Shown: one piece after another, positions 6,519 through 18,643 of the stretch | Position numbering within the stretch: position 1 is the stretch's first letter | Layout of the letters: every line of letters starts with the position of its first letter | From: Stenotrophomonas rhizophila | GTDB lineage: Bacteria > Pseudomonadota > Gammaproteobacteria > Xanthomonadales > Xanthomonadaceae | Assembly: GCF_003651185.1 (NCBI RefSeq) | Contig: NZ_RCDC01000007.1 | Location: forward strand, 248,001-312,000 | DNA: 64,000 nucleotides | Direction: 5' to 3' | The notes under the pieces: generated by a model | Seen by the model: the letters and a program-made list of their open reading frames with translations, nothing else | Told to the model about the DNA's origin: nothing | Databases searched by the model: none | Program-made: the position numbers and the translations under genes

Positions 6519-8204
6519 ATGGCAGACAATCATTACGACGCGATCGTCGTTGGCTCGGGAATCAGTGGCGGTTGGGCGGCGAAGGAACTGACCGAGAAGG
6601 GCCTCAAGGTGCTGATGCTGGAACGCGGCCGCAACATCGAGCACGTTAAGGACTACGTCAACGCGATGAAGGAACCGTGGGACTTCCCGCACCGCAACCG
6701 GCCAACCCAGGCGATGAAGGCCGCCTTCCCGGTGCTGATGCGCGACTACGCGCTGGCCGAGAACCTCCAGGGCATGTGGGCCGACGAACAGGAATCGCCC
6801 TACATCGAGACCAAGCGCTTCGACTGGTTCCGCGGCTACCACGTCGGTGGACGTTCGCTGATGTGGGGCCGGCAGAGCTATCGCTTCTCCGACCTGGATT
6901 TTGAGGCGAACCTCAAGGACGGCATCGCCACCGACTGGCCGATCCGCTACGCCGACATCGCACCCTGGTACGACCATGTGGAGAAGTTCGCCGGCATCGC
7001 TGGCACCCGTGAAGGGCTGGACGTGCTGCCGGACGGCCAGTTCCTGCCGCCGATCCCGTTGAACATCGTCGAAAAGGACGTGGCCGCGCGGATCAGGAAG
7101 GCCTTCGGCGGAACCCGGCACATGATCCACTCGCGCACCGCCAACATCACCCAGCCATTGCCCGAGCAGGGTCGGGTCAACTGCCAGTACCGCAACAAGT
7201 GCATTCTTGGCTGTCCCTTCGGTGCGTACTTTTCGACACAGGCGGCGACGCTGCCGGCGGCCATGAAGACGGGCAACCTGACGTTGCGGCCGTTCTCGAT
7301 CGTCAAGGAAGTGCTCTACGACAAGGACCGCAAGCGTGCGCGCGGGGTGGAGGTCATCGATGCCGAGACGGGGCAGACCTATGAGTACACGGCCAAGGTC
7401 ATCTTCCTCAATGCGTCCTCCTTCAACTCCACCTGGCTGCTGATGAACTCGGCCACCGATGTGTGGGATGGCGGGCTGGGCGCATCGTCGGGCGAGCTGG
7501 GCCACAACGTGATGGACCATCATTTCGGTGCGGGCGCCTCGGGCCGGGTCGAGGGCTATGAGGACAAGTACTACTTCGGCCGTCGTCCCTGCGGCTTCTA
7601 CATTCCCCGCTTCCGCAACGTGGCTGCGGACAAGCGCCGCTACCTGCGTGGCTTCGGCTACCAGGGCGGTGCCAGCCGCACGGGATGGTCGCGCGAGATC
7701 GCCGAGCTGAACATCGGTGCCGACCTGAAGGAGGCGCTGACCGTGCCCGGTGACTGGCGCATCGGCATGACCGGCTTCGGCGAAATGCTGCCGCACCACG
7801 ACAACACGATCCGCCTGGACGGCGACCGCAAGGACAAGTGGGGACTGCCGGTGCTGGCGATGGATGTCTCCATGCGCGCCAACGAACTGGCCATGCGCAA
7901 GGACATGGCCGCCGATGCTGCTGAGATGCTCGAGGCCGCGGGGGTCAAAGACGTGGAGATGCATGACAATGACTACGCGCCAGGCAAGGGCATCCACGAA
8001 ATGGGGACCGCGCGCATGGGCCGTGACCGCAGGACGTCCGTGCTGAACCAGCACAACCAGGTCTGGGATGCGCCCAACGTCTATGTGACCGACGGTGCCT
8101 GCATGACGTCCAGCGCGTGCGTGAATCCTTCGCTGACCTACATGGCGCTGACGGCGCGGGCCGCCGACCATGCCGCACGCGAACTGAAAGCGGGGAATCT
8201 CTGA
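6519..8204 (+). CDS. GMC-family FAD sugar dehydrogenase, probable glycoside 3-dehydrogenase catalytic subunit
   Basis: 561 residues. The Rossmann FAD motif is at the N-terminus (VVGSGISGGWAAKEL, ~residues 10-24). A Cys pair (NKCILGCPFGAY) lies near residue 230. The catalytic His is in KGIHEMGTARMG and the partner Asn in CVNPSLTYMAL near the C-terminus. The protein lacks its own export signal; the next gene's product has one, as in gluconate/fructose dehydrogenase complexes where the small subunit carries the large one through Tat. Electrons would pass to the c-type cytochrome at 9568. Similar triplets (GMC, Tat small subunit, cytochrome) make up the Caulobacter lac and other glucoside-3-dehydrogenase systems. 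The TGATG junction couples it to the next gene. Confidence 0.92.
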   Translation: MADNHYDAIVVGSGISGGWAAKELTEKGLKVLMLERGRNIEHVKDYVNAMKEPWDFPHRNRPTQAMKAAFPVLMRDYALAENLQGMWADEQESPYIETKRFDWFRGYHVGGRSLMWGRQSYRFSDLDFEANLKDGIATDWPIRYADIAPWYDHVEKFAGIAGTREGLDVLPDGQFLPPIPLNIVEKDVAARIRKAFGGTRHMIHSRTANITQPLPEQGRVNCQYRNKCILGCPFGAYFSTQAATLPAAMKTGNLTLRPFSIVKEVLYDKDRKRARGVEVIDAETGQTYEYTAKVIFLNASSFNSTWLLMNSATDVWDGGLGASSGELGHNVMDHHFGAGASGRVEGYEDKYYFGRRPCGFYIPRFRNVAADKRRYLRGFGYQGGASRTGWSREIAELNIGADLKEALTVPGDWRIGMTGFGEMLPHHDNTIRLDGDRKDKWGLPVLAMDVSMRANELAMRKDMAADAAEMLEAAGVKDVEMHDNDYAPGKGIHEMGTARMGRDRRTSVLNQHNQVWDAPNVYVTDGACMTSSACVNPSLTYMALTARAADHAARELKAGNL

Positions 8205-8779
8205 TGGATCGTCGCGAACTGCTGAAGATGATCGTCGCCGCCACCGGTGCGGCCATGATCGGTCTGCCCGCGCTCGGTCAGGCACAGGCTCCTGCCGCAG
8301 GTGCGAAGTCGCGCTTCTCCGACGCGGATGTCGGCACGCTGGACGAGATCGCTGAGACCATCCTGCCGCGGACGACAACGCCGGGGGCGAAAGACGCAGG
8401 CGCCGGTGCGTTCATGGCGACGTTCGTCAGCGACTGCTACACCGCCCGGCAGCAGGCGACGTTCCGCGCCGGCCTGGCCGATATCGACAAACGCGCGGGC
8501 GGCCGCTTCGTCTCGCTCGCGCCGCAGGCACGCACCGAGCTGCTGCGCGCGCTGGATACAGAGGCCAGGAAACAGGCAGTCGAGGTCACCGAGACCGGTA
8601 CCGCCGAGGAAGGGGAGCCGATGCCGCATTACTTCACGATGTTCAAGCAGCTGACCATCTTCGGTTTCTTCACCTCCAAAGTCGGCGCAACTGAAGTGCT
8701 GCGCTACGTCGCGGTGCCGGGGCGCTACGACGGCGACCTCGCCTATATCCCCGGTACGCCGGCGTGGGGGACCAGCTGA
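8204..8779 (+). CDS. Gluconate 2-dehydrogenase subunit-3-like Tat small subunit
   Basis: 191 residues. The Tat signal is MDRRELLKMIVAATGAAMIG; the remainder is helical and matches the subunit-3 family (PF13618) pattern, with a conserved LDEIAETILPRT segment and a C-terminal KQLTIFGFFTSKVGATEVLRY stretch. It is thought to chaperone and export the FAD subunit. Its ATG shares a base with the GMC stop codon (TGATG) and its own stop is coupled the same way to the DUF1080 gene. No heme or iron-sulfur motif is seen, so it is structural or an export partner rather than an electron carrier. Confidence 0.9.
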   Translation: MDRRELLKMIVAATGAAMIGLPALGQAQAPAAGAKSRFSDADVGTLDEIAETILPRTTTPGAKDAGAGAFMATFVSDCYTARQQATFRAGLADIDKRAGGRFVSLAPQARTELLRALDTEARKQAVEVTETGTAEEGEPMPHYFTMFKQLTIFGFFTSKVGATEVLRYVAVPGRYDGDLAYIPGTPAWGTS

Positions 8780-9537
8780 TGGAGCGCAACAGAATGATCA
8801 CGCCTGTGCTGATCGCCGTCGCCGTGCTGGTTGCCGCACCCGCGCTCGCGCAGGCCGGTGCCGATCCCGCGCACGATCCGGCGAAGACCGAGGTATGGAC
8901 GCCCGTGCCTGCAACGGTGGCCACCCCGCCGGGAAAGGCGCCGTCCGACGCCATCGTGCTGTTCGATGGCAAGGACGTCTCGGCCTGGGAGTCGGAGCAG
9001 GGCGGACGCGTGCCCTGGCGCGTCGCCGATGGCGCGCTCACGGTGGTTCCGGGCAGCAAGGGCATCCGTACCCGGCAGCGCTTCTGCGACGTCCAGCTGC
9101 ATGTCGAGTGGCGCACGCCCGTCGAAACCACGGGTTTCGATGGCCAGAACCGGGGCAACAGTGGCATCTTCCTGCAGGAACTGTATGAGCTGCAGGTGCT
9201 CGACAGTTACAACAACCCGACCTATGCCAATGGCCAGGCCGGCGCCATCTACAAGCAGGCCATGCCCTTGGTGAACGCCTCGCGCGCGCCGGGCGAGTGG
9301 CAGGCCTACGACATCCTCTGGAAGGCACCGCGCTTCTCAGTGGGCGGTGGGCTTGTATCGCCTGCGCGCATCACCGTCCTGCACAACGGCGTGCTGGTGC
9401 AGGACGACACCGTGCTGGCGGGCAAGACCGAGTACATCGGCGCGCCCTCGTATTCGCCCCATGCGTGCGCGCCGCTCTCCCTGCAGGAACATGATTCGAA
9501 GGTCAGCTACCGCAATATCTGGGTGCGCGAGCTGTAG
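8779..9537 (+). CDS. Exported DUF1080 / 3-keto-disaccharide hydrolase-fold protein
   Basis: 252 residues with a Sec signal peptide (about residues 1-24, MITPVLIAVAVLVAAPALAQA core). The jelly-roll DUF1080 (PF06439) domain starts at IVLFDGKDVSAWE and includes the GNSGIFLQELYELQVLD block typical of the family, and ends with SKVSYRNIWVREL. Family members cleave glycosides already oxidised at C3, by elimination/hydration, in the periplasm. It is translationally coupled (TGATG) to the small subunit gene and is the last gene of the plus-strand operon. It fits as the enzyme that splits the product of the upstream GMC dehydrogenase; substrate unknown. Confidence 0.9.
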   Translation: MERNRMITPVLIAVAVLVAAPALAQAGADPAHDPAKTEVWTPVPATVATPPGKAPSDAIVLFDGKDVSAWESEQGGRVPWRVADGALTVVPGSKGIRTRQRFCDVQLHVEWRTPVETTGFDGQNRGNSGIFLQELYELQVLDSYNNPTYANGQAGAIYKQAMPLVNASRAPGEWQAYDILWKAPRFSVGGGLVSPARITVLHNGVLVQDDTVLAGKTEYIGAPSYSPHACAPLSLQEHDSKVSYRNIWVREL

Positions 9538-9544
9538 TGGCACA

Positions 9545-9566
9545 CGGCCGGCGTGGTCGCCGGCCG
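9545..9566. terminator. Hairpin between the two convergent operons
   Basis: Stem GGCCGGCG / CGCCGGCC (8 bp, extendable by one C-G pair) with a TGGT loop, lying between the stop codons of the DUF1080 gene and the cytochrome gene. The T tract is poor on both strands, so it is a hairpin that may stop transcription in both directions. Confidence 0.6.
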
Positions 9567-9567
9567 C

Positions 9568-9864
9568 TTATTTCGCCAGGTAACTGGCGAGATTGTCGAT
9601 TTCCTGCTGCGACAGCTGGGAGAAGGGCGGCATCAAGCCGCCGCCCTTGCTGATCTTTTCCTTGATCTGCGCCGGCTGCAACCGCTTTGCGACATCGGTG
9701 AGTGCGGGGAACGTCGGCGGAATGCCGGCCCGATTCGCGCCGTGGCAGGCCGTGCAGTGCACGGCATAGAGTTGTGCGCCAGCGGCCGGGTCATCGTTGG
9801 ACCACGCTGTGGGGGCCAGCACCGTGCCGAACAGCGTCAGGGCCAGCGTCAGGATCTTGTTCAC
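9568..9864 (-). CDS. Periplasmic cytochrome c
   Basis: 98 residues. A Sec signal peptide (MNKILTLALTLFGTVLAPTAWS) precedes a class I cytochrome c domain. The heme attachment site is CTACH and the likely axial Met is in the GGLMPPFSQL segment. It is the last gene of the five-gene minus-strand operon, convergent with the DUF1080 gene. It is the natural electron acceptor for the GMC dehydrogenase at 6519, passing electrons to the respiratory chain. This pairing is inferred from locus content. Confidence 0.93.
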   Translation of the reverse strand: MNKILTLALTLFGTVLAPTAWSNDDPAAGAQLYAVHCTACHGANRAGIPPTFPALTDVAKRLQPAQIKEKISKGGGLMPPFSQLSQQEIDNLASYLAK

Positions 9865-9882
9865 GTGGGGCTCCTTGGCAGG

Positions 9883-10749
9883 CTAGCGCGGTGCGCTGGC
9901 GGGCAGCGTGGCGGTGAGGTGCTGGCGCAGGTAGTCCGCGCCCGTCTTGATGACCTTGGCCGGATCACGAGGGTGGTCGTGCTCGACGATGTACCACTGC
10001 ACGCCCGCCGCCGCGGCGGCAGGCAGGATCGCGTTCCAGTCCAGAACGCCCTGGCCAACAGCGGCGAAGCCGCCCTCGTCTTCGGCCTGGCCTTTGGGTG
10101 CGTTGTCCTTGGCGTGTACCGCGAACACGTGGCCACGGAATTTGCCCAGCATCACCACCGGGTCATGGCCCGCACGGGCTACCCAGGCCAGGTCCAGCTC
10201 GGTCTGCAGGTCGGGGCCGGCCGCAGCGAACAGCAGTTCCAGGCCGGTTTTGCCGTTGAAGTCGACCAGCTCGAAGTCATGGTTGTGGTAAGCCAATCGC
10301 ATCCCCTGGGTGTTTGCCTGCGCCGCGATCCGGCCCAGTTCCTGGCCCAGCGCGGTCCAGCCAGCGGCATCGGTCGGCCGATCCTTCTCGTCCAGGTACG
10401 GCACCACCAGAGTGGTGTTTCCGATCGAGCGGTTGAAGGCCACCACCCCGGCCAGGTCGCTGCGCAGATCGGCCAGTTGCACGTGGGAGGAAATGGCCTT
10501 GATCGAATAGCGGTCCAGCAGTTGCTTGAGTTCGGCGGCGCTGACATTCTGGGTACCGACTGTCTCCACCGCGCCGACGCCCGCGTCATGCACGATCTTC
10601 AACTGCTGGTCGAGCGTGCCGGCGTCGCGCAGCGTGTACATCTGCACTGCGATGGGCTGCTGTGGACCGGCCGGGGCGCCTGCGAAGGCGGGCAGGGCAA
10701 CGAGCAGCAGCAATGCGAGGGTGGTGGTCCTGCGCGTAGCGATTTTCAT
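9883..10749 (-). CDS. Sec-exported sugar phosphate isomerase/epimerase-like TIM barrel
   Basis: 288 residues. A signal peptide (MKIATRRTTTLALLLLVALPAFA) is followed by an AP-endonuclease-2-type TIM barrel: IAVQMYTLRDAG at the first strand, Glu in AVETVG, His in ISSHVQLAD, the YHNHDFE motif near the middle, Asp in TELDLAWVARAG, and IVEHDHP near the end. These match the metal-binding positions of the family. GGGAGGA precedes the start. It lies 18 bp after the cytochrome gene's upstream end and 19 bp downstream of the Gfo/Idh gene. It is the second exported barrel of this locus, the first using Tat and this one Sec. Confidence 0.88.
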   Translation of the reverse strand: MKIATRRTTTLALLLLVALPAFAGAPAGPQQPIAVQMYTLRDAGTLDQQLKIVHDAGVGAVETVGTQNVSAAELKQLLDRYSIKAISSHVQLADLRSDLAGVVAFNRSIGNTTLVVPYLDEKDRPTDAAGWTALGQELGRIAAQANTQGMRLAYHNHDFELVDFNGKTGLELLFAAAGPDLQTELDLAWVARAGHDPVVMLGKFRGHVFAVHAKDNAPKGQAEDEGGFAAVGQGVLDWNAILPAAAAAGVQWYIVEHDHPRDPAKVIKTGADYLRQHLTATLPASAPR

Positions 10750-10768
10750 CAACACATCCTCCCGGGAT

Positions 10769-11893
10769 TCAACCGATGGTGGTCCAGGCACGGGACCTGG
10801 CCGATGCAATCACGCGGTCGACGATCAACGCCGAACGCAGGCCGTCCTCGAAGGTGGGCAGGCCCTGTGGCCGCTCGCCGTCGATGGCGTGGTAGGTGTC
10901 GGCGACGAACGCCTCGAAGCAGTGGCCGTAGCCCTGCGCATGGCCAGGCGGCAACACCGACAGCCGGCGTTGTTCGGCACTGCCGGCACCTGGCCCACGC
11001 ACGAAGGTTTCCTCGCGCTGGTCGGGTCGGCCGATCCACAGCCGTTCGGCGTCCTCCTGGTTGAACGCCACGCTGGCCCGGGCGCCGTCGATCTCGAACC
11101 AGAGGCGATTGTGGCGTCCGGCCGAGACCTGGCTGACCGTCAATGACGCCAGCGTGCCTGCGCCGGTCTTGAACATCGCCGCGGCCACATCTTCGCTGGA
11201 TACGGCCTGCATCGCGCCGCCCGCCGCCGGCGTGGTGAAGCTCTGGCCGGTGAGGGCGCCGCGCTCGGCGAGCACGGTGGCGAATGCCGCACTGACGTCG
11301 ACGAAGCGCTCGCCACTGACCCATTCCACCAGGTCGCACCAGTGCGAGCCGATGTCGGCGAACACGCGCGACGCGCCGCCCAGCGCCGGGTCCACGCGCC
11401 AGTTGTTGCTGGCCGGGTCCAGCAGCCAGTCCTGCAGGTAGCTGCCGTGGATCAGGTGCAGCGGGCCCAGCTCGCCCTGCGCGATGCGTGCGCGCGCCTC
11501 GCGCACCACCGGGTGGTAGCGGTAGACGAACGGCACCGTGGCGACCAGCCCGGTCGAGGCGGCCAATGCGGCCAGCGCCTGGGCATCCTCCAGTGTGGTG
11601 GCCAGCGGTTTCTCGCAGATCACGTGCTTGCCCGCTTTCAGCGCCGCCTGCGCCATGGCGCGGTGCAGATGGTTTGGCGTGCAGACGTGCACCACGTGGA
11701 CCTGCGGATCGGTGACCACCTCTTCGATGTCACGATAGGCGCGCGGGACATTCCATGCCTGCGCCACGTCGCGTGCGCGCTGCGGTGACGAGGCGGCCAC
11801 GCCCCGGATTTCCGCTCCCGCCAGCAGCGCCGCGCGACGATGCACCGCGCCGATCATGCCGGTGCCGATGATGGCGATTCCAAGCGTTGGCAT
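10769..11893 (-). CDS. Gfo/Idh/MocA-family NAD(P) sugar oxidoreductase
   Basis: 374 residues, cytoplasmic. The Rossmann fold starts at LGIAIIGTGMIGAVHRRAAL. The catalytic Lys lies in the CEKPLATTLEDA segment, and the C-terminal domain has the DIGSHWCDLVEWVSGE block with conserved Asp and His. Such enzymes oxidise or reduce sugars, often at C3. In this locus it could reduce a 3-keto sugar back to the parent sugar after import by the MFS at 11906; this is inference. It is 12 bp downstream of that MFS gene in the same operon. Confidence 0.92.
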   Translation of the reverse strand: MPTLGIAIIGTGMIGAVHRRAALLAGAEIRGVAASSPQRARDVAQAWNVPRAYRDIEEVVTDPQVHVVHVCTPNHLHRAMAQAALKAGKHVICEKPLATTLEDAQALAALAASTGLVATVPFVYRYHPVVREARARIAQGELGPLHLIHGSYLQDWLLDPASNNWRVDPALGGASRVFADIGSHWCDLVEWVSGERFVDVSAAFATVLAERGALTGQSFTTPAAGGAMQAVSSEDVAAAMFKTGAGTLASLTVSQVSAGRHNRLWFEIDGARASVAFNQEDAERLWIGRPDQREETFVRGPGAGSAEQRRLSVLPPGHAQGYGHCFEAFVADTYHAIDGERPQGLPTFEDGLRSALIVDRVIASARSRAWTTIG

Positions 11894-11905
11894 CGGGTGC
11901 GGTCC

Positions 11906-13123
11906 TCAGGGTGTGGAAGGGGCGGCCGCGACCACCGGCCGGTCGCGGAACAGCAGCAGGAAGGCGATCAGCACGACCAGCGCGACGCCCGCCGGGAACA
12001 GCCAGATCTGCTGCCAGTCCGGGCCAGCTGCCGTGGTGTAGTGCTCCACCACCGCGCCGGACAGGAACGTGCCGATCAACATGCCCACGCCGTACGTGGC
12101 CAGGGTGATGAACCCCTGCGCGCTGCTGCGCGCGGCGGGGCCGGCATGCGCATCGGTGTAGATCTGGCCGGTGACGAAGAAGAAGTCGTAGCAGATGCCG
12201 TGCAGCACGATGCCGATCACCAGCAGGGAGAAGCCGCTGCCTGCATCGCCGAAGGCGAACATCGCATAGCGCACTACCCACGCCGCCATGCCCAGCGCCA
12301 GCATCGTCTTCACTCCCAGCCGCACGAACAGGAACGGCATGGCCAGCATCAGCAGCACTTCGGAGACCTGGCCCAGCGATTGCAGGCCGGCCGCGCCGCG
12401 CACGCCCAGATCGTTGAGGTACGGGTTGGTGAAGTTGTAGTAGAACGCCAGCGGGATGCAGATGGCGATGGAGGCCAGGAAGAACACCAGGTAGGAGCGC
12501 GACTTCAGAAGCCGCAGCGAATCCAGCCCCAGGATCTGTCCCAGCCCGGCGTCGCGCTGTTGCGCCAGCGGCGGCGTGTGCGGCAGCGTGAACGCATACA
12601 GGCCCAGCGCCAGCGACGCCATCGCCGCCATCCGGAACGTCAGCTCGAGCCGATGCGCCTGTTCCCAGCCCAGCCAGCCGATCAGCACGCCCGCCACGAT
12701 CCAGCCGACGCTGCCGGCCACCCGCACGAGCGGAAACTGCTTTTCCGGCGACTGCATGTGCCGCATCGCCACACTGTTGGCCAGCGCCAGCGTTGGCATG
12801 AACAGCAGCATGTACCCCATGACATAGAAGGAGAAGGTGCTGAAGTCCGTCGCCGTGGACGCCAGCCACATCAGCGCCGCGCCAGCGAGGTGGAGTACCG
12901 CGAGGATGCGCTGCGCCGCGAAGTAGCGATCCGCGATCAGGCCGACCAGGAAGGGCGCGACGATGGCGCCGATCGATTGGCTGAGGAACGCCGTCGCGAC
13001 CTGGCTCGCGCTGGCCTGCAATGGCCCCTGCACCAGGTAGGTCCCCAGGGTGACGAACCATGCCCCCCAGATGAAGAACTGCAGAAACATCATCGCGCCC
13101 AAGCGCGACATGGTGTGCGTCAT
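11906..13123 (-). CDS. MFS sugar/nucleoside permease (NupG/XapB-like)
   Basis: 405 residues with 12 predicted membrane helices. The N-terminal MMFLQFFIWGAWFVTLGTYL and central FYYNFTNPYLNDLG segments are characteristic of the nucleoside:H+ symporter branch of the major facilitator family. The start ATG at 13123 follows a strong GGGAGGG ribosome site. It sits between the cytosolic isomerase and the Gfo/Idh gene, so it probably imports the sugar or keto-sugar made in the periplasm rather than a nucleoside. Substrate is not deducible. Confidence 0.87.
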   Translation of the reverse strand: MTHTMSRLGAMMFLQFFIWGAWFVTLGTYLVQGPLQASASQVATAFLSQSIGAIVAPFLVGLIADRYFAAQRILAVLHLAGAALMWLASTATDFSTFSFYVMGYMLLFMPTLALANSVAMRHMQSPEKQFPLVRVAGSVGWIVAGVLIGWLGWEQAHRLELTFRMAAMASLALGLYAFTLPHTPPLAQQRDAGLGQILGLDSLRLLKSRSYLVFFLASIAICIPLAFYYNFTNPYLNDLGVRGAAGLQSLGQVSEVLLMLAMPFLFVRLGVKTMLALGMAAWVVRYAMFAFGDAGSGFSLLVIGIVLHGICYDFFFVTGQIYTDAHAGPAARSSAQGFITLATYGVGMLIGTFLSGAVVEHYTTAAGPDWQQIWLFPAGVALVVLIAFLLLFRDRPVVAAAPSTP

Positions 13124-13149
13124 GGCTTGCCCTCCCAGGCAGTGATGGC

Positions 13150-14202
13150 TCAGATCCCCAGCATGCGGCGCAGTGATCCAGGATCGGTGCCGCTGTCGGC
13201 AAAGTCGTCGAAGGCGCGCCCGGTCACGTGGATGATGTGGTCGCGGATGAAGGCGGCCCCTTCGCGCGCGCCGTCTTCCGGGTGCTTCAGGCAGCACTCC
13301 CACTCCAGCACTGCCCAGCCAGGAAAGTCGTACTGCGCGAATTTCGAGAAGATCGCCTTGAAGTCGATCTGGCCGTCCCCGAGCGAGCGGAACCGCCCAG
13401 GACGATCGATCCAGTCCTGGTAACCGCCATACACGCCACTGCGCGCGCTGGCGTGATACTCCGCGTCCTTGACGTGGAAGATGCCGATGCGATCGTGGTA
13501 GCGGTCGATGAAACCCAGGTAGTCCATCTGCTGCAGCAGCAGGTGACTGGGGTCGTACAGGATCTTCGCGCGGGGATGGTGGTCCACCACCTTGAGAAAG
13601 CGCTCGAACGTTGCGCCGTCATGCAGGTCCTCGCCCGGGTGGATCTCGAAACACAGATCCACGCCGCAGGTGTCGAACGCATCCAGGATCGGACGCCAGC
13701 GGCGGCCGAGTTCGGCGAACGCTTCATCCACCAACCCGGGTGGGCGTTGCGGCCAGGGATAGAAGTAGGGCCAGGCCAGCGCGCCGGAGAACGTGGCGTG
13801 CGCGGTCAGCCCCAGGCGCTGGCTGGCCTTGGCGGCCAGCAGCAGCTGCTCCACCGCCCAGGCTTGGCGGGCCGCGGGATCACCGCGTTTGTCCGGTGGT
13901 GCGAATCCGTCGAACAGGCTGTCATAGGCCGGATGGACGGCAACCAGCTGCCCCTGCAGGTGGGTGGACAGCTCGGTGATCTGCAGGCCGTGTGCACCCA
14001 GCATGCCGGTCACATCGTCGCAATACGTCTGGCTGCGCGCAGCTTCGGCCAGATCGAACAGCGCCGGAGCGCTGGTAGGCACTTGTACGCCAGAATAGCC
14101 CAGCCCCGCGGCCCATCCGGCCAGCGTGTCCAGCCGATCGAACGGAGGTGTGTCGCCAATGAACTGCGCCAGGAACAGTGCTGGACCCTTGAGCGTTTTC
14201 AA
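13150..14202 (-). CDS. Cytosolic sugar phosphate isomerase/epimerase-like TIM barrel
   Basis: 350 residues from a TTG start at 14202 (KTLKGPALFLAQF), chosen because GAGGG lies 9 nt upstream and no ATG is available; a TTG at 14223 would sit inside the operator. The barrel shows Glu in CFEIHPGEDLHDG, Asp/His in LYDPSHLLLQQ, His in IFHVKDAEYH and Glu in LEWECCLKHPEDG, the metal site of the family. There is no signal peptide. First gene of the minus-strand operon, just downstream of operator copy 2. It probably acts on the imported sugar product. Confidence 0.88.
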   Translation of the reverse strand: MKTLKGPALFLAQFIGDTPPFDRLDTLAGWAAGLGYSGVQVPTSAPALFDLAEAARSQTYCDDVTGMLGAHGLQITELSTHLQGQLVAVHPAYDSLFDGFAPPDKRGDPAARQAWAVEQLLLAAKASQRLGLTAHATFSGALAWPYFYPWPQRPPGLVDEAFAELGRRWRPILDAFDTCGVDLCFEIHPGEDLHDGATFERFLKVVDHHPRAKILYDPSHLLLQQMDYLGFIDRYHDRIGIFHVKDAEYHASARSGVYGGYQDWIDRPGRFRSLGDGQIDFKAIFSKFAQYDFPGWAVLEWECCLKHPEDGAREGAAFIRDHIIHVTGRAFDDFADSGTDPGSLRRMLGI

Positions 14203-14218
14203 GCGGATTCGCCCTCGA

Positions 14219-14232
14219 TGCAATCGATTGCA
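14219..14232. promoter_or_regulatory. LacI-type operator TGCAATCGATTGCA (copy 2)
   Basis: Identical to the palindrome at 5527-5540. It lies between the leftward isomerase operon and the rightward LacI gene. A GATAAT -10-like hexamer on the minus strand (14237-14232) abuts and partly overlaps it, and the isomerase TTG start is 17 bp away. It should allow the LacI product to repress the operon and perhaps itself. Confidence 0.82.
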
Positions 14233-14297
14233 TTATCCTAGCAGGGGCATTCGAAAGAGCTGTTGTGCACTGCACAGCGGAAGGAAGAGGTAACGCC

Positions 14298-15305
14298 ATG
14301 GCCACCATCTACGACATCGCAAAGCACGTCGGTGTTTCCGCCGGCACGGTGTCGCGGGCGCTGTCCCGGCCGGAAAAAGTCCTGCCGGCCACGCGCGCGC
14401 GCATCGAACAGGCGGCGTCGGCGCTGGGCTATGTCCCCAACACGGTTGCCCGGACACTCAAGACCCAGCGCAGCGGCAAGATCCTGGTCACCGTGCCGGA
14501 CATCGCCAATCCGTTCTTCGCCCAGATCCTGCAGGGCGCGGAGGACGCGGCGCAGGCCGTTGGCTACGCTGTCCTGCTCGGCGATACCCAGAACCGGCCC
14601 GAGCGCGAGGAGCGCTATGCACAGATGCTCCGGCGCAACGAGGCCGATGGCCTGATCGTGCTGGGGCACCGCCTGCCGCCGACGGCGCGCGAGATCGTCC
14701 AGCAGCGCGGCGCCGCCGCGCCGGTGGTCAACGGATGCGAGTTCGATCCCGCGCTGGGCATCCCCAGCGTCCACATCGACAACGCGGCCGCCGCGCGCGC
14801 CGTGATGGAACACCTGTACGGGCTGGGGCACGAGCGGATCGCCGTGGTCGGTGGGCCGCGCGACAATCCTCTGCACCAGCAACGACTGGAAGGCGTCCGG
14901 ACCGCTGCCAAGGCGCGTGGTCGCCTGCGCCAGTTGAGCGTCGTGCCGGGCGACTTCACCATCGAATCCGGGCACGCGGCCGGAATGTCGCTGTTGACGC
15001 GCGCGCCCGTGCCGACGGCGGTGTTCTGTTTCAGCGACCAGATGGCACTGGGCGTCCTGGCGGCCTGCCGGGATCTGGGCATCCGGGTGCCGGGTGATCT
15101 GTCCGTCGTCGGCTTCGACGACCTGGCATCGTCGCGTTACCTCACGCCTCCGCTGACGACCATCAGGCAACCGATGCGGGAGATCGGTGCCCGCGCGGTC
15201 AACCTGCTGCTCGCCATCATCGAACGTGTCGATGTGCCGCTTCAGCAGACGCTGGATTTCAGTTTGATGCTGCGGGGCTCGACTGCCTCGCCCAGGCGTA
15301 GGTGA
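14298..15305 (+). CDS. LacI-family regulator of the sugar-oxidation locus
   Basis: 335 residues. The helix-turn-helix is TIYDIAKHVGVSAGTVSRAL (residues ~3-22), followed by the hinge and a sugar-sensing domain with VTVPDIANPFFAQILQGAE and VVGFDDLASSRYLTPPLTTI. The ATG at 14298 follows GGAAGAGG; earlier in-frame codons lack a ribosome site. It is divergent from the five-gene operon and next to one of two identical palindromes, so it is the likely repressor of both operons. The inducer is presumably a sugar or keto-sugar of the pathway. Confidence 0.94.
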   Translation: MATIYDIAKHVGVSAGTVSRALSRPEKVLPATRARIEQAASALGYVPNTVARTLKTQRSGKILVTVPDIANPFFAQILQGAEDAAQAVGYAVLLGDTQNRPEREERYAQMLRRNEADGLIVLGHRLPPTAREIVQQRGAAAPVVNGCEFDPALGIPSVHIDNAAAARAVMEHLYGLGHERIAVVGGPRDNPLHQQRLEGVRTAAKARGRLRQLSVVPGDFTIESGHAAGMSLLTRAPVPTAVFCFSDQMALGVLAACRDLGIRVPGDLSVVGFDDLASSRYLTPPLTTIRQPMREIGARAVNLLLAIIERVDVPLQQTLDFSLMLRGSTASPRRR

Positions 15306-15421
15306 GGGCAGTCCGGTGCCTGGCACCCGCCACGCCGGTTGGTCGAAGCGGCGGGGCAACGTGTCCATCCGCGGTGCCGGTGGCACCGCAGCCTCAGCAG
15401 CCATGCACCCAATCGATTCCA

Positions 15422-16657
15422 TTACGCAGGTGCGTCTGCAACGGGCTCCTTGCAGACGAAGTACGCGTAGTAGGCAATGACGCATGCCATCGCTGAGATT
15501 ATCACGACCGAAGCATAGCTCCAGCGGATGGAAACATGGGCGCCGGATCCGCCGACCAGGCCATACATGACGAGTATGAGAGCGCTGGAGACTGCGTTGG
15601 CTGCAGTCTGTACACGCCCCTGCATCCCCTTCTCGGTAAGCCGCTGCGCGGCGGTCGTAACCACCGGCCAAGCGGCCAGGCAGGTGCCGATCACAAAGTA
15701 GAGGAAGAATGCCTTCCAGAACGAACTGGTCAGGGCAAAGATTGCAAAAGAGAGGGCCATTACAAGCGTCGCGGCCACCAGCGCAGGACCATAACCCCAC
15801 CGCGTGGCGGCAGCCGGGAGGACGAACGCCCCTATCACGGCACCTGCCGACAGCGACGCTTCGATTGCACCAAACTGGCCTGAACTGAGGTCCAGCACCA
15901 CCTTGGCGAACGGCGCAAGCAGGATGCTTGTCGTCATCAGAGTGACGTAAACAAGCATCTGTATGCTGTACAGCAGTACCAGCCTATGCTCTCCCAGCAG
16001 GTAGCGGACGCCGTCACGGGTGTCTTGCCAGTAGCTGCCCTTGCTGGTTGGGTCGCAGCGGAACTCCAGGTGTTCCTTGCGCACGAACAGCATGCAAAAA
16101 AATGCCGCTGCGAAAAGGCCCGCGGTTATCAGCAGCACCGTCGCCGGTGAAGCGACCATCATGAGTGCTCCGCTGATAGGCATGCCGACGATGAAACCAA
16201 CCTCGAATGCGATGTCAACCGTGGAATTGGCATGCAGCAGCCTGCTGTCGTCGACCAGCTCACGGACCATGGCCAGCAGGGCTGGTGTGTACAGGGCAGA
16301 ACAGGAACCCATCACGAACGCCAGAGCCATCAGCGCAGCAACGCCCGGGTGCCTGATGTAGAGTGCAGCGGCAGCAACAAGGGCAACCACGCGCAGGATC
16401 TTCGTCGCCATGACGATGTGACGTCTGTCCACCCGGTCGACCAGCAGGCCGATTGCGGGGGCAAGAAGCAGGGAGGGCAGCCAGAAGCAGACCATCAGTC
16501 CCGCCAGTGCGGATACGGATGCGTGTTGGTTTACGACCGTCCACGACATGGTGAGCAGCACCATGCCAGCGCCGATGTTCGCCAACAGGCAGCTGACTAT
16601 GACCCAGCGCACGGCGGGGATACCCAGAAGCGCCATCCGCGCGGTCAAGTGGTTCAT
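15422..16657 (-). CDS. MFS efflux-type transporter (BacE/MdfA-like)
   Basis: 411 residues with about 12 membrane helices. The VDRVDRRHIVMATK loop between helices 2 and 3 is the MFS signature A. AGGAG lies 7 nt before the ATG at 16657. Codon use is visibly less GC-biased than in flanking genes. Only 20 bp upstream lies a fragment of an ATP-grasp ligase (16678-17097), an arrangement resembling dipeptide-antibiotic loci where a ligase and an MFS exporter are paired. A self-protection or export role is therefore suspected but not proven. Confidence 0.85.
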   Translation of the reverse strand: MNHLTARMALLGIPAVRWVIVSCLLANIGAGMVLLTMSWTVVNQHASVSALAGLMVCFWLPSLLLAPAIGLLVDRVDRRHIVMATKILRVVALVAAAALYIRHPGVAALMALAFVMGSCSALYTPALLAMVRELVDDSRLLHANSTVDIAFEVGFIVGMPISGALMMVASPATVLLITAGLFAAAFFCMLFVRKEHLEFRCDPTSKGSYWQDTRDGVRYLLGEHRLVLLYSIQMLVYVTLMTTSILLAPFAKVVLDLSSGQFGAIEASLSAGAVIGAFVLPAAATRWGYGPALVAATLVMALSFAIFALTSSFWKAFFLYFVIGTCLAAWPVVTTAAQRLTEKGMQGRVQTAANAVSSALILVMYGLVGGSGAHVSIRWSYASVVIISAMACVIAYYAYFVCKEPVADAPA

Positions 16658-16677
16658 TCGTTGCTCCTGCATGGCGT

Positions 16678-17097
16678 TCAAGAAGGGGTGTAGGCAACAT
16701 CCAGGACGAAGCCGTCGAGGATCCGTTGCATGCGCTCCTGGACCTCGGCAGACGTCCGTCCTTCGACCTGCACGTAGCCGGCGCAGAATCCGGACGATCG
16801 CTTCGGTTGAATGCAATCGCCGATCGCAACGTTCATCTGGCAGCTGAGCACGCCGGGATAGGCCATGAGTTCCCGTGCTGTCGACAACCGGGTCACAACG
16901 CCAGCAACCGCCGGCAGCAGAAGATCGCCAACAGCCCTGTCACGCGTGTAAACCAGTTCGGGGTGCCGTCCTACATAGGTATCCATGATCGCGTGCAGAA
17001 GATCAAAGCCATACGCGTGGCCATGATTGAGTGGCACTTCGCAGCCGCTCAACCGTGCGGCGATCTCGCTCATGAAGAACCGGCCGTCGTCAGTCAT
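16678..17097 (-). pseudogene. C-terminal fragment of an ATP-grasp ligase (L-amino-acid-ligase-like)
   Basis: 139 residues. The start TDDGRFFMSEIAARLSG matches the last part of the ATP-grasp catalytic domain, where Glu and Arg bind Mg-ATP. A GFDLLHAIMDTYVG helix and a C-terminal subdomain (GVVTRLSTARELMAYPGV ... GYVQVEGRTSAEVQERMQRIL) follow, as in L-amino-acid ligases and carnosine-synthase-like enzymes. Full enzymes have about 400 residues; the ATP-binding N-terminal two-thirds is missing and an in-frame TAA at 17131-17133 closes the frame upstream. It is most simply a decayed or truncated gene, although a stand-alone small protein cannot be excluded. Confidence 0.6.
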
Positions 17098-17617
17098 GAA
17101 GAGATCAGATGGCCGCGATGGCGGCGGCGATTACAGCGAAGGTGGGATCTTCAGGCGTGCCATCGGCTTGATTGAGCGCTGGATGGCGTTCTGCCGTTGT
17201 GCCAAATGTGGTCTCGTTGCGAGACGGTCAATCGGATGGCGTGAAGTGTGCATGGTCGACATCGTGGAGATTCCATCAGGCATCGATACAGCTCCTTGCT
17301 TGCTTGTCGAAACACTAACATGGTGACCTGCGCCGGGGCCAAGATGGTGGTCTCATTTCTGATCGCTGAAGCGTATTGAATGACGTACTCCAGCGCCTTG
17401 AAGAGATAGCACGCAGCATCATCTGCACCGTTGAATGTGGGCGAGGCGCCGGGGATTCTGCAGCCGAAGTGGCCTGCTTAATGTGCTCGATGCAGACAGC
17501 CATCGAGCTCGGGCCGACGCTGCGCGATGGCGGCGAGCTGAACCCGTTCGCCTGGGCCTGTGCAGTTTCTTGATGGCGCTGGGCAGTACCATGGGCCACC
17601 CGTCAGGATGCGCCCGC
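17098..17617. other. Low-GC non-coding stretch upstream of the ligase fragment
   Basis: About 520 bp with no convincing gene. Short open frames exist on both strands but have no ribosome sites and atypical codon use. It probably contains debris of the missing N-terminal part of the ATP-grasp gene or of a recombination junction; I could not recover ATP-grasp motifs in other frames. Confidence 0.45.
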
Positions 17618-18643
17618 ATGTCCATAGTGATCCCCGCGTTGCCCAAGCCGCCCACCGCCCGCATCGCGGCCTGGTTGCTGATGCTGCTGGGCATGTGGCT
17701 GACCTTGAAACTCGGGCTCGTGGTCACCCTGCTGTCGGGCCTGCTGGTGTTCCACCTGACCCATCTGCTGGCCTCCACCGTCGAGGGCAAGTTGCCGCCC
17801 GGGCGCGCACGGGCCTATTCGGTGATCGTGCTGTCAGCGTTGATCATCGGCGCGCTGACCCTGGCGGCGATCGGCATCGCCTCGTTCTTCCGCAACGAGA
17901 CCGGTGGCCCGGATGCGCTGTTGATGCGTCTGATGGACATCCTCAACACCTCCCGCCACCAGGTGCCGGACCTGCTGCAGCCCTATATCCCGGAAGACCT
18001 GCAGGCGCTGCGCACGGCGATGAACGACTGGGCGGCGACCCACCGCCAGCAGCTCGGTATCGCCGGCACGTCGGCCGTGCAGATCAGCGTGCGGATCCTG
18101 ATCGGCATGGTGCTTGGTGCGATGATCGCGCTCTACGACGAGCTGCCGCTGCCGAAGATGGGGCCATTGGCGCAGGAGCTGATCGGCCGCACCAGCCGCA
18201 TGGCCACGGCGTTCCGGCAGGTGGTGTTCGCCCAGGTGAAGATCTCCCTGCTCAATACGCTGTTCACCGCCATCTTCCTGCTCGGGGTGCTGCCGCTGTT
18301 CGGTGTGCATCTGCCGCTGTCCAAGACGCTGGTGCTGATCACCTTCCTCGCCGGCCTGCTGCCGGTGGTGGGCAACATCATCTCCAACACGGTCATCACC
18401 ATCGTCGCGCTGTCGGTGTCGTTCTACGTGGCCGTGGTCGCGCTGCTGTATCTGGTGGTGATCCACAAGCTGGAGTACTTCCTGAACGCGCGCATCGTCG
18501 GGGGCGAGATCCAGGCGCGCGCCTGGGAGCTGCTGCTGGCAATGCTGGTGATGGAAGCGGCGTTCGGGCTGCCAGGGCTGGTCGCGGCGCCGGTGTTCTA
18601 TGCCTACATCAAGCGCGAACTGCTGGATCAGCGCTGGATCTGA
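17618..18643 (+). CDS. AI-2E-family transporter (PF01594 permease)
   Basis: 341 residues. Hydrophobic helices near the N-terminus (IAAWLLMLLGMWLTLKLG), a central soluble helical region (~100-150) and a C-terminal set of helices containing LAGLLPVVGNIISNTVITIVAL fit the AI-2E/PerM family. AGGA lies 9 nt before the chosen ATG. Some family members act in Na+/H+ exchange or quorum-signal export; the substrate here is unknown. It converges on the TonB receptor gene with only 13 bp between, so no separate terminator is visible. Confidence 0.88.
   Translation: MSIVIPALPKPPTARIAAWLLMLLGMWLTLKLGLVVTLLSGLLVFHLTHLLASTVEGKLPPGRARAYSVIVLSALIIGALTLAAIGIASFFRNETGGPDALLMRLMDILNTSRHQVPDLLQPYIPEDLQALRTAMNDWAATHRQQLGIAGTSAVQISVRILIGMVLGAMIALYDELPLPKMGPLAQELIGRTSRMATAFRQVVFAQVKISLLNTLFTAIFLLGVLPLFGVHLPLSKTLVLITFLAGLLPVVGNIISNTVITIVALSVSFYVAVVALLYLVVIHKLEYFLNARIVGGEIQARAWELLLAMLVMEAAFGLPGLVAAPVFYAYIKRELLDQRWI

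Follow-up and report, generated by a model that had tools for sequence, protein, structure and literature searches.

A low-GC ligase-transporter insert in a Stenotrophomonas rhizophila genome, with an open MFS transporter gene and a ligase gene shortened by an 891-bp deletion relative to a related genome

Between a LacI-type regulator gene and a gene of the AI-2E family, the S. rhizophila genome studied here carries a short stretch of lower GC content in which a complete transporter gene lies beside a piece of an ATP-grasp ligase gene. This raises the question of how such a pair came about, and of what the transporter could still do next to a ligase that is no longer whole. The DNA analysed, here called the window, is a stretch of 64,000 nucleotides (248001-312000 of contig C4). 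It belongs to a draft genome (G000) of 12 contigs and 4.44 Mb. The comparison that carries most of the argument is with G092, another genome of the genus, and with its corresponding locus L005. The features are as follows, in window coordinates.

14265..15305, plus strand: LacI-type regulator, left flank; 3' end from about 15030 in the recombined tract
15312..17583, no strand: acquired low-GC insert between the LacI-type and AI-2E-family genes, 2272 bp, delimited by genome comparison and GC
15422..16657, minus strand: MFS transporter, 411 aa, complete frame (Pfam; 99 % identity to G092, 61 % to G018)
16678..17097, minus strand: C-terminal remnant (139 aa) of an ATP-grasp L-amino-acid ligase (LAL_C2 and alignment to the G092 frame)
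17101..17102, minus strand: deletion junction, 891 bp of G092 missing (alignment to L005; 1-bp microhomology)
17102..17583, no strand: leader part of the insert, about 480 bp, 98 % identical to G092, no recognised genes or RNA families
17618..18643, plus strand: AI-2E-family transporter gene, right flank (PF01594); 5' end to about 17720 in the recombined tract

The insert contains just two recognised genes, the ligase piece and the MFS gene. Its GC content (15312-17583) is 60.5 %, compared with 66.2 % for the whole window. When segments of the same length were taken along the window in 50-bp steps, GC as low as that of the insert was found in 7 of 1235; the 16 segments within 0.01 of the insert GC all start between 15051 and 15851 and overlap the insert, while the 26 non-overlapping segments outside it range from 0.638 to 0.689. 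Third-position GC is 0.74 in the MFS gene and 0.69 in the ligase piece, while the genes on either side have 0.84 and 0.92. The distribution over 91 genomes of the genus, its own included, places the edges independently of composition. The DNA of the right flank has long matches in 59 other genomes, every one starting at 17584 or beyond, and the leader to the left of 17584 is matched by G092 only. Likewise, the entire insert was found among the 90 other genomes in G092 only; in G018 the MFS part alone is matched at the DNA level (66 %), at a different site. In three of 28 loci inspected the flank homologies (to 15293/15294 on the LacI side, from 17584 on the right side) are 9-10 bp apart, in 10 further loci the LacI end is present and the spacer measures between about 107 bp and 1.4 kb, and for the remaining 15 the stretch compared contained no LacI match.

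A previous, sequence-only reading of this DNA had described an island at 15306-17617 with lower GC than both sides and had proposed that it was acquired. These limits agree with the edges from the comparison set (about 15312 and 17583) within about 35 bp, and the lower GC was borne out for both overall and third-position GC. The acquisition is supported by the presence of the whole insert elsewhere only in G092, by its absence from this site in other genomes and by the low GC and GC3. The genome searches returned no donor; judged from the sequences, the insert probably originated outside the genus. No tRNA genes were found in the window, and the repeats listed for 15200-17700 include no matching pair framing the insert except one 14-nt pair of 93 % identity (15265/17679), which is taken as chance. 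The LacI and AI-2E homologies were both seen in 13 of the 28 genus loci (L025-L052), and the gap between them varies there between 9 bp and about 1.4 kb, which may mark this position as a minor hot spot of insertion.

The 139-residue frame has LAL_C2 (PF18603) as its sole significant Pfam match, with 2.2e-11 and 44.3 bits against a cut-off of 29.4. It starts at a Met that is internal to a longer ligase frame (residue 272 of the 410 in G092 when numbered from the first possible start), and it is 99 % identical to the corresponding part of the G092 ligase. Roughly twelve codons further upstream the reading frame contains a stop, and 20 bp separate the 139-residue frame from the MFS gene. It had earlier been read as the C-terminal fragment of an ATP-grasp ligase with an in-frame stop upstream, which the Pfam match bears out, and a search of relatives for an intact ligase had been suggested. 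Ligase matches occur in two of the 91 genus genomes, its own included, and the other one is the uninterrupted 410-residue frame of G092 in the same insert.

The window and G092 align collinearly on both sides of 17101/17102, and L005 7608-8498 (891 bp) is missing in the window assembly. The breakpoints have one base in common, and direct repeats of at least 14 bp were not found there. The missing block comprises the DNA upstream of the ligase and the ligase frame to about residue 270. The remnant thus lacks the ATP-binding half and is predicted to be unable to ligate anything. A search of its own genome with the ligase gave a single match, to residues 245-410 (E<=1e-10), and at this threshold the missing part has no further copy in the genome. 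Of the earlier description as a decayed ligase remnant, the remnant stands and the gradual decay does not, the loss being a single clean 891-bp deletion. As one genome per species was compared, other isolates of the species may lack the deletion.

Upstream of the junction the leader holds ORFs of up to 99 aa (minimum 60 aa), together with the frame of the right-flank gene running back into it, in agreement with the about 500 bp of non-coding sequence noted before. Four leader ORFs of the window and one of G092 had no Pfam match at E<=10. The leader was rejected as the remnant of another gene, since its ORFs are without Pfam match and the N-termini of related ligases have no significant match in the corresponding G092 DNA. 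An RNA element was also rejected, as 15000-18000 gave no Rfam match at the gathering threshold.

A junction of this kind could be produced by the assembly, if the ligase were whole in the real chromosome and 891 bp had been dropped, and the genome is indeed a 12-contig draft. However, the junction sits inside a contig of 387,785 bp, and breakpoints sharing 1 bp, with no direct repeat of at least 14 bp, offer no repeat on which an assembler might have collapsed the sequence. The missing ligase part is also absent elsewhere in the assembly at the threshold given above, and we consider an assembly artefact very improbable. It is hardly credible that the 139-residue frame encodes a small protein with a function of its own, such as a LAL_C2-like partner to the MFS transporter. 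It does have an ATG start and its 99 % identity to the same part of G092, but it is unmatched in 60 other relatives (61 genomes, its own included), the 90 other genus genomes give the long frame of G092 only, and the seven distant relatives discussed below are all long ligases. Moreover, its start lies 4 bp from the deletion scar, and with three differences from G092 it offers too little variation for a test of selection. The small protein in its own right was rejected because no such frame occurs in relatives; a conserved small protein of the same length had been named beforehand as the case that would speak against a remnant, and the fragment was found in its own genome alone among the 61.

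The two genomes that share the insert are not equally close along the locus. Between G000 and G092 there are 13.2 differences per kb in the insert, compared with 114 to the left (8001-14999) and 76 to the right (17801-18643). The dS between the window and G092 is 0.020 in the ligase piece and 0.032 in the MFS gene, compared with 0.28 in the AI-2E gene. The tract of low divergence extends from near 15030, in the LacI gene, to near 17720, in the AI-2E gene. As the insert is far less diverged than its flanks, the tract has moved between lineages by recombination. Inside the tract, the 3' end of the LacI gene of G092 is 0.019 from G000 and 0.086 from G101, while just outside the tract on that side G092 is 0.104 from G000 and 0.034 from G101. 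These distances suggest that G092 was the recipient and that the deletion followed the transfer, a direction that rests on 261 bp and few genomes. The AI-2E side, with 137 bp in the tract, is uninformative on direction, since outside the tract G092 is equally far (0.082) from G101 and from G000. From the sequences, the donor of the tract looks like a lineage close to G000 in which the ligase was then still uncut.

We consider it highly likely that a two-gene cassette was acquired and spread by recombination, and that its ligase was cut by a single 891-bp deletion while the MFS gene was kept. The cassette, an ATP-grasp ligase gene followed by an MFS transporter gene and probably of extra-generic origin, would have entered between two chromosomal genes and would then, together with parts of both flanking genes, have crossed between species of the genus via homologous recombination. 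After this transfer, one deletion of 891 bp in the lineage of the window would have removed the DNA upstream of the ligase and about its first 270 codons, leaving 139 C-terminal residues without the ATP-binding half and an MFS frame that stayed open. Judged from the protein families, the ligase of the complete cassette would use ATP to couple an amino acid to another amine, and the MFS protein would export the conjugate; export of a peptide by the MFS transporter that was kept is what we infer. In the genome of the window only the exporter, if still expressed, could act, perhaps protecting against the same or a similar compound. The sequence-only proposal, a remnant of an acquired peptide-synthesis locus with its exporter gene retained, is largely supported, corrected in that the loss was one deletion, that the insert has moved between species and that the ligase resembles those of blasticidin-type clusters. 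The event itself is of a known kind, an ordinary and well-documented gene loss.

It is also conceivable that the ligase was already dead in both genomes, having been truncated at the N-terminus on or before insertion, and that the locus has been exporter-only since it entered the genus. Five relatives have in common an N-terminal stretch of about 65 residues which is absent from the G092 frame, and blastp alignments of this frame to the five start at residue 67 or later. Searched in all frames over 1.1 kb surrounding the G092 start, the N-termini of the relatives had no significant match (among the matches listed, E about 0.1 or more). Along L005, in the region 7690-7890 where the first 65 or so conserved residues of the family are missing, codon-position GC is weakly coding-like before about 7828 (46 codons) and clearly coding after it. 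On the other hand, the remaining 340 or so residues of the G092 frame align to the relatives at 42-54 % identity with no frameshift or stop, an operon-like distance of 20 bp separates the ligase and MFS genes of G092, and the enzyme may tolerate an N-domain that is shorter or has diverged. On this evidence a ligase dead from the beginning is possible, though in our estimate rather unlikely. ATP-grasp_4 is below the Pfam threshold for the G092 ligase, with 24.3 bits compared with 27. As the N-terminal 65 or so residues are absent, we term the G092 ligase uninterrupted, not functional. It may have a shorter N-domain or be itself impaired, and changes in the cassette, perhaps disabling ones, may thus have preceded the deletion.

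With the acquired and later cut cassette as the preferred reading, the MFS gene is the part that could still have a function. Its product matches MFS_1 (8e-32) and MFS_3 (3e-21) in Pfam over residues 8-409, and TIGR00900 at 3.5e-44, yet under the curated cut-off of that family (151.7 compared with 319.6); no solved structure matched it at 0.001. The gene occurs in three of the 91 genus genomes, its own included. The G018 copy, with 61 % identity, has no ligase in the surrounding 16 kb (tblastn). Three of 321 genomes of the class had matches at 1e-60, the two non-own ones at 35-36 %, and no ligase was found near these two (ORFs of at least 180 aa, within about 1.5 kb). The window and G092 copies of the gene differ at 13 positions, of which 3 are non-synonymous, where 74 % non-synonymous differences would be expected without constraint (p=2e-4, transitions unweighted). 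The complete frame and these substitutions lend support to the earlier claim that the exporter gene was retained. The constraint that the substitutions show spans the whole time since the common ancestor of G000 and G092 and cannot be assigned to the period after the deletion. No sigma-70-like promoters were found in 15300-17650, compared with 0.9 in shuffles.

Relatives of the ligase were sought at several levels. Matches were obtained in two of 321 class genomes at 1e-20 (its own and G494, the latter at 46 %) and in one of 329 phylum genomes at 1e-25 (its own only). At the level of the order, 11 of 250 genomes matched at 1e-8, and apart from its own these had identities of 24-30 %. Among plasmids 135 records matched; the best four of 15 listed were used, the others listed being at 28.5 % or less. 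The genome-contig search gave no relative with a one-protein query and three loci with an alignment query. Seven distant ligase loci were compared in all, G494 (L053) and L056, a gammaproteobacterial MAG, having the same ligase sequence and being counted once. The identities to the G092 ligase were 54 % for Streptomyces NBC_00557, 47 % for Streptomyces NBC_00467, 44 % for Kitasatospora NBC_00039 and 43 % for Streptoalloteichus hindustanus (blastp), 43 % for S. tenebrarius and 42 % for Embleya NBC_00888 (tblastn), and 45 % for the MAG (blastp).

Homologues of CGA synthase and BlsE were found near the ligase in five of these seven loci, in four of the five together with an arginine 2,3-aminomutase homologue. 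An MFS gene adjoins the ligase in five of the seven and is one gene away in a sixth, a raw count of six of seven; in the MAG locus no MFS gene was found in the little downstream DNA. Four of the distant MFS proteins neighbouring a ligase gave no blastp match to the window MFS at 1e-3, and the window MFS had no match in the seven ligase loci at 1e-8. As these four MFS proteins do not align to that of the window, the pairing of ligase and MFS was not inherited with this particular MFS protein.

The five loci with CGA synthase and BlsE (S. hindustanus, S. tenebrarius, Streptomyces NBC_00467, Kitasatospora NBC_00039 and Embleya NBC_00888) form the blasticidin-type set. They resemble the insert in having a ligase of the same family (42-47 % to G092), which we take to be BlsI, with the conserved C-terminal positions of the remnant and an adjacent MFS gene. 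They differ from it in the presence of CGA synthase and BlsE, whereas the insert has ligase and MFS only, and the three of their MFS proteins compared had no blastp alignment to the window MFS at 1e-3. In L057 and L058 (S. hindustanus and S. tenebrarius), which are blasticidin-type clusters, the ligase and an MFS gene have CGA synthase, BlsE and arginine 2,3-aminomutase homologues next to them. The closest ligase found (WP_330343114, 54 % to G092) is that of the Streptomyces sp. NBC_00557 plasmid, where an MFS gene is one gene away; its product and the window MFS both match MFS_1 and MFS_3, with no blastp alignment between them at 1e-3. This cluster differs from the insert in having an adenylation-domain protein and a TauD/TfdA dioxygenase, and no CGA synthase or BlsE homologue was found in its 21 kb. 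The cluster spans L063:3430-14178 on this plasmid and comprises the adenylation protein, the TauD/TfdA dioxygenase, the ligase, an unnamed protein and the MFS gene. Among the sequences compared, the nearest ligases thus appear to sit in blasticidin-type clusters (5 of 7), though the closest one does not.

The nearest solved structures are 4wd3, the best match, presumably RizA, and BL00235 (3vot), both named L-amino acid ligases. They align to the G092 copy over 273 and 198 residues, respectively, and are remote from it (phmmer 4e-15 and 4e-8). The MGR_bin175 MAG cluster (L056) is alike in its ligase, 45 % to that of G092 and in a proteobacterium by title, and differs in the SbnA and SbnB (above NCBIfam cut-offs), haem-oxygenase-like and FemAB-like proteins around the ligase. 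At L056:5272-11208, SbnA, SbnB, a haem-oxygenase-like protein, the ATP-grasp ligase and a FemAB-like protein together form a likely diaminopropionate peptide cluster, the SbnA/SbnB set suggesting a diaminopropionate product. Queries with CGA synthase and with SbnB, run without positive control, had no match in G000, G092 or G018, so no larger pathway of either kind was detected in these three genomes. Bacilysin had been mentioned as a possible parallel in the sequence-only reading; bacilysin-specific families are absent from the NCBIfam matches listed (in one set 25 of 34; profile families only), and a putative kinship finds no support in these profile matches.

The value of the G000/G092 pair is that it presents an apparent step from producer to non-producer, with the same insert at the same site, a long ligase frame on one side and a single deletion on the other, and an exporter nearly unchanged. 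It bears on whether exporters outlive biosynthesis by protecting against producers. Furthermore, a type of ligase found, among its relatives, mostly in actinobacterial nucleoside-antibiotic clusters is here a bare ligase-exporter pair in another bacterial group. A more far-reaching idea, which we think improbable, would be that in proteobacteria a bare ligase of the blasticidin-cluster clade and a dedicated MFS protein suffice to make and export a novel amino-acid conjugate, the exporter persisting, once the ligase is lost, as a protection gene against neighbours still producing that compound.

On the left side of the locus, a gene of the nucleoside-symporter family and a xylose-isomerase-like TIM-barrel gene (11906-14223) adjoin the LacI-type regulator, and these genes probably form a sugar-use operon.
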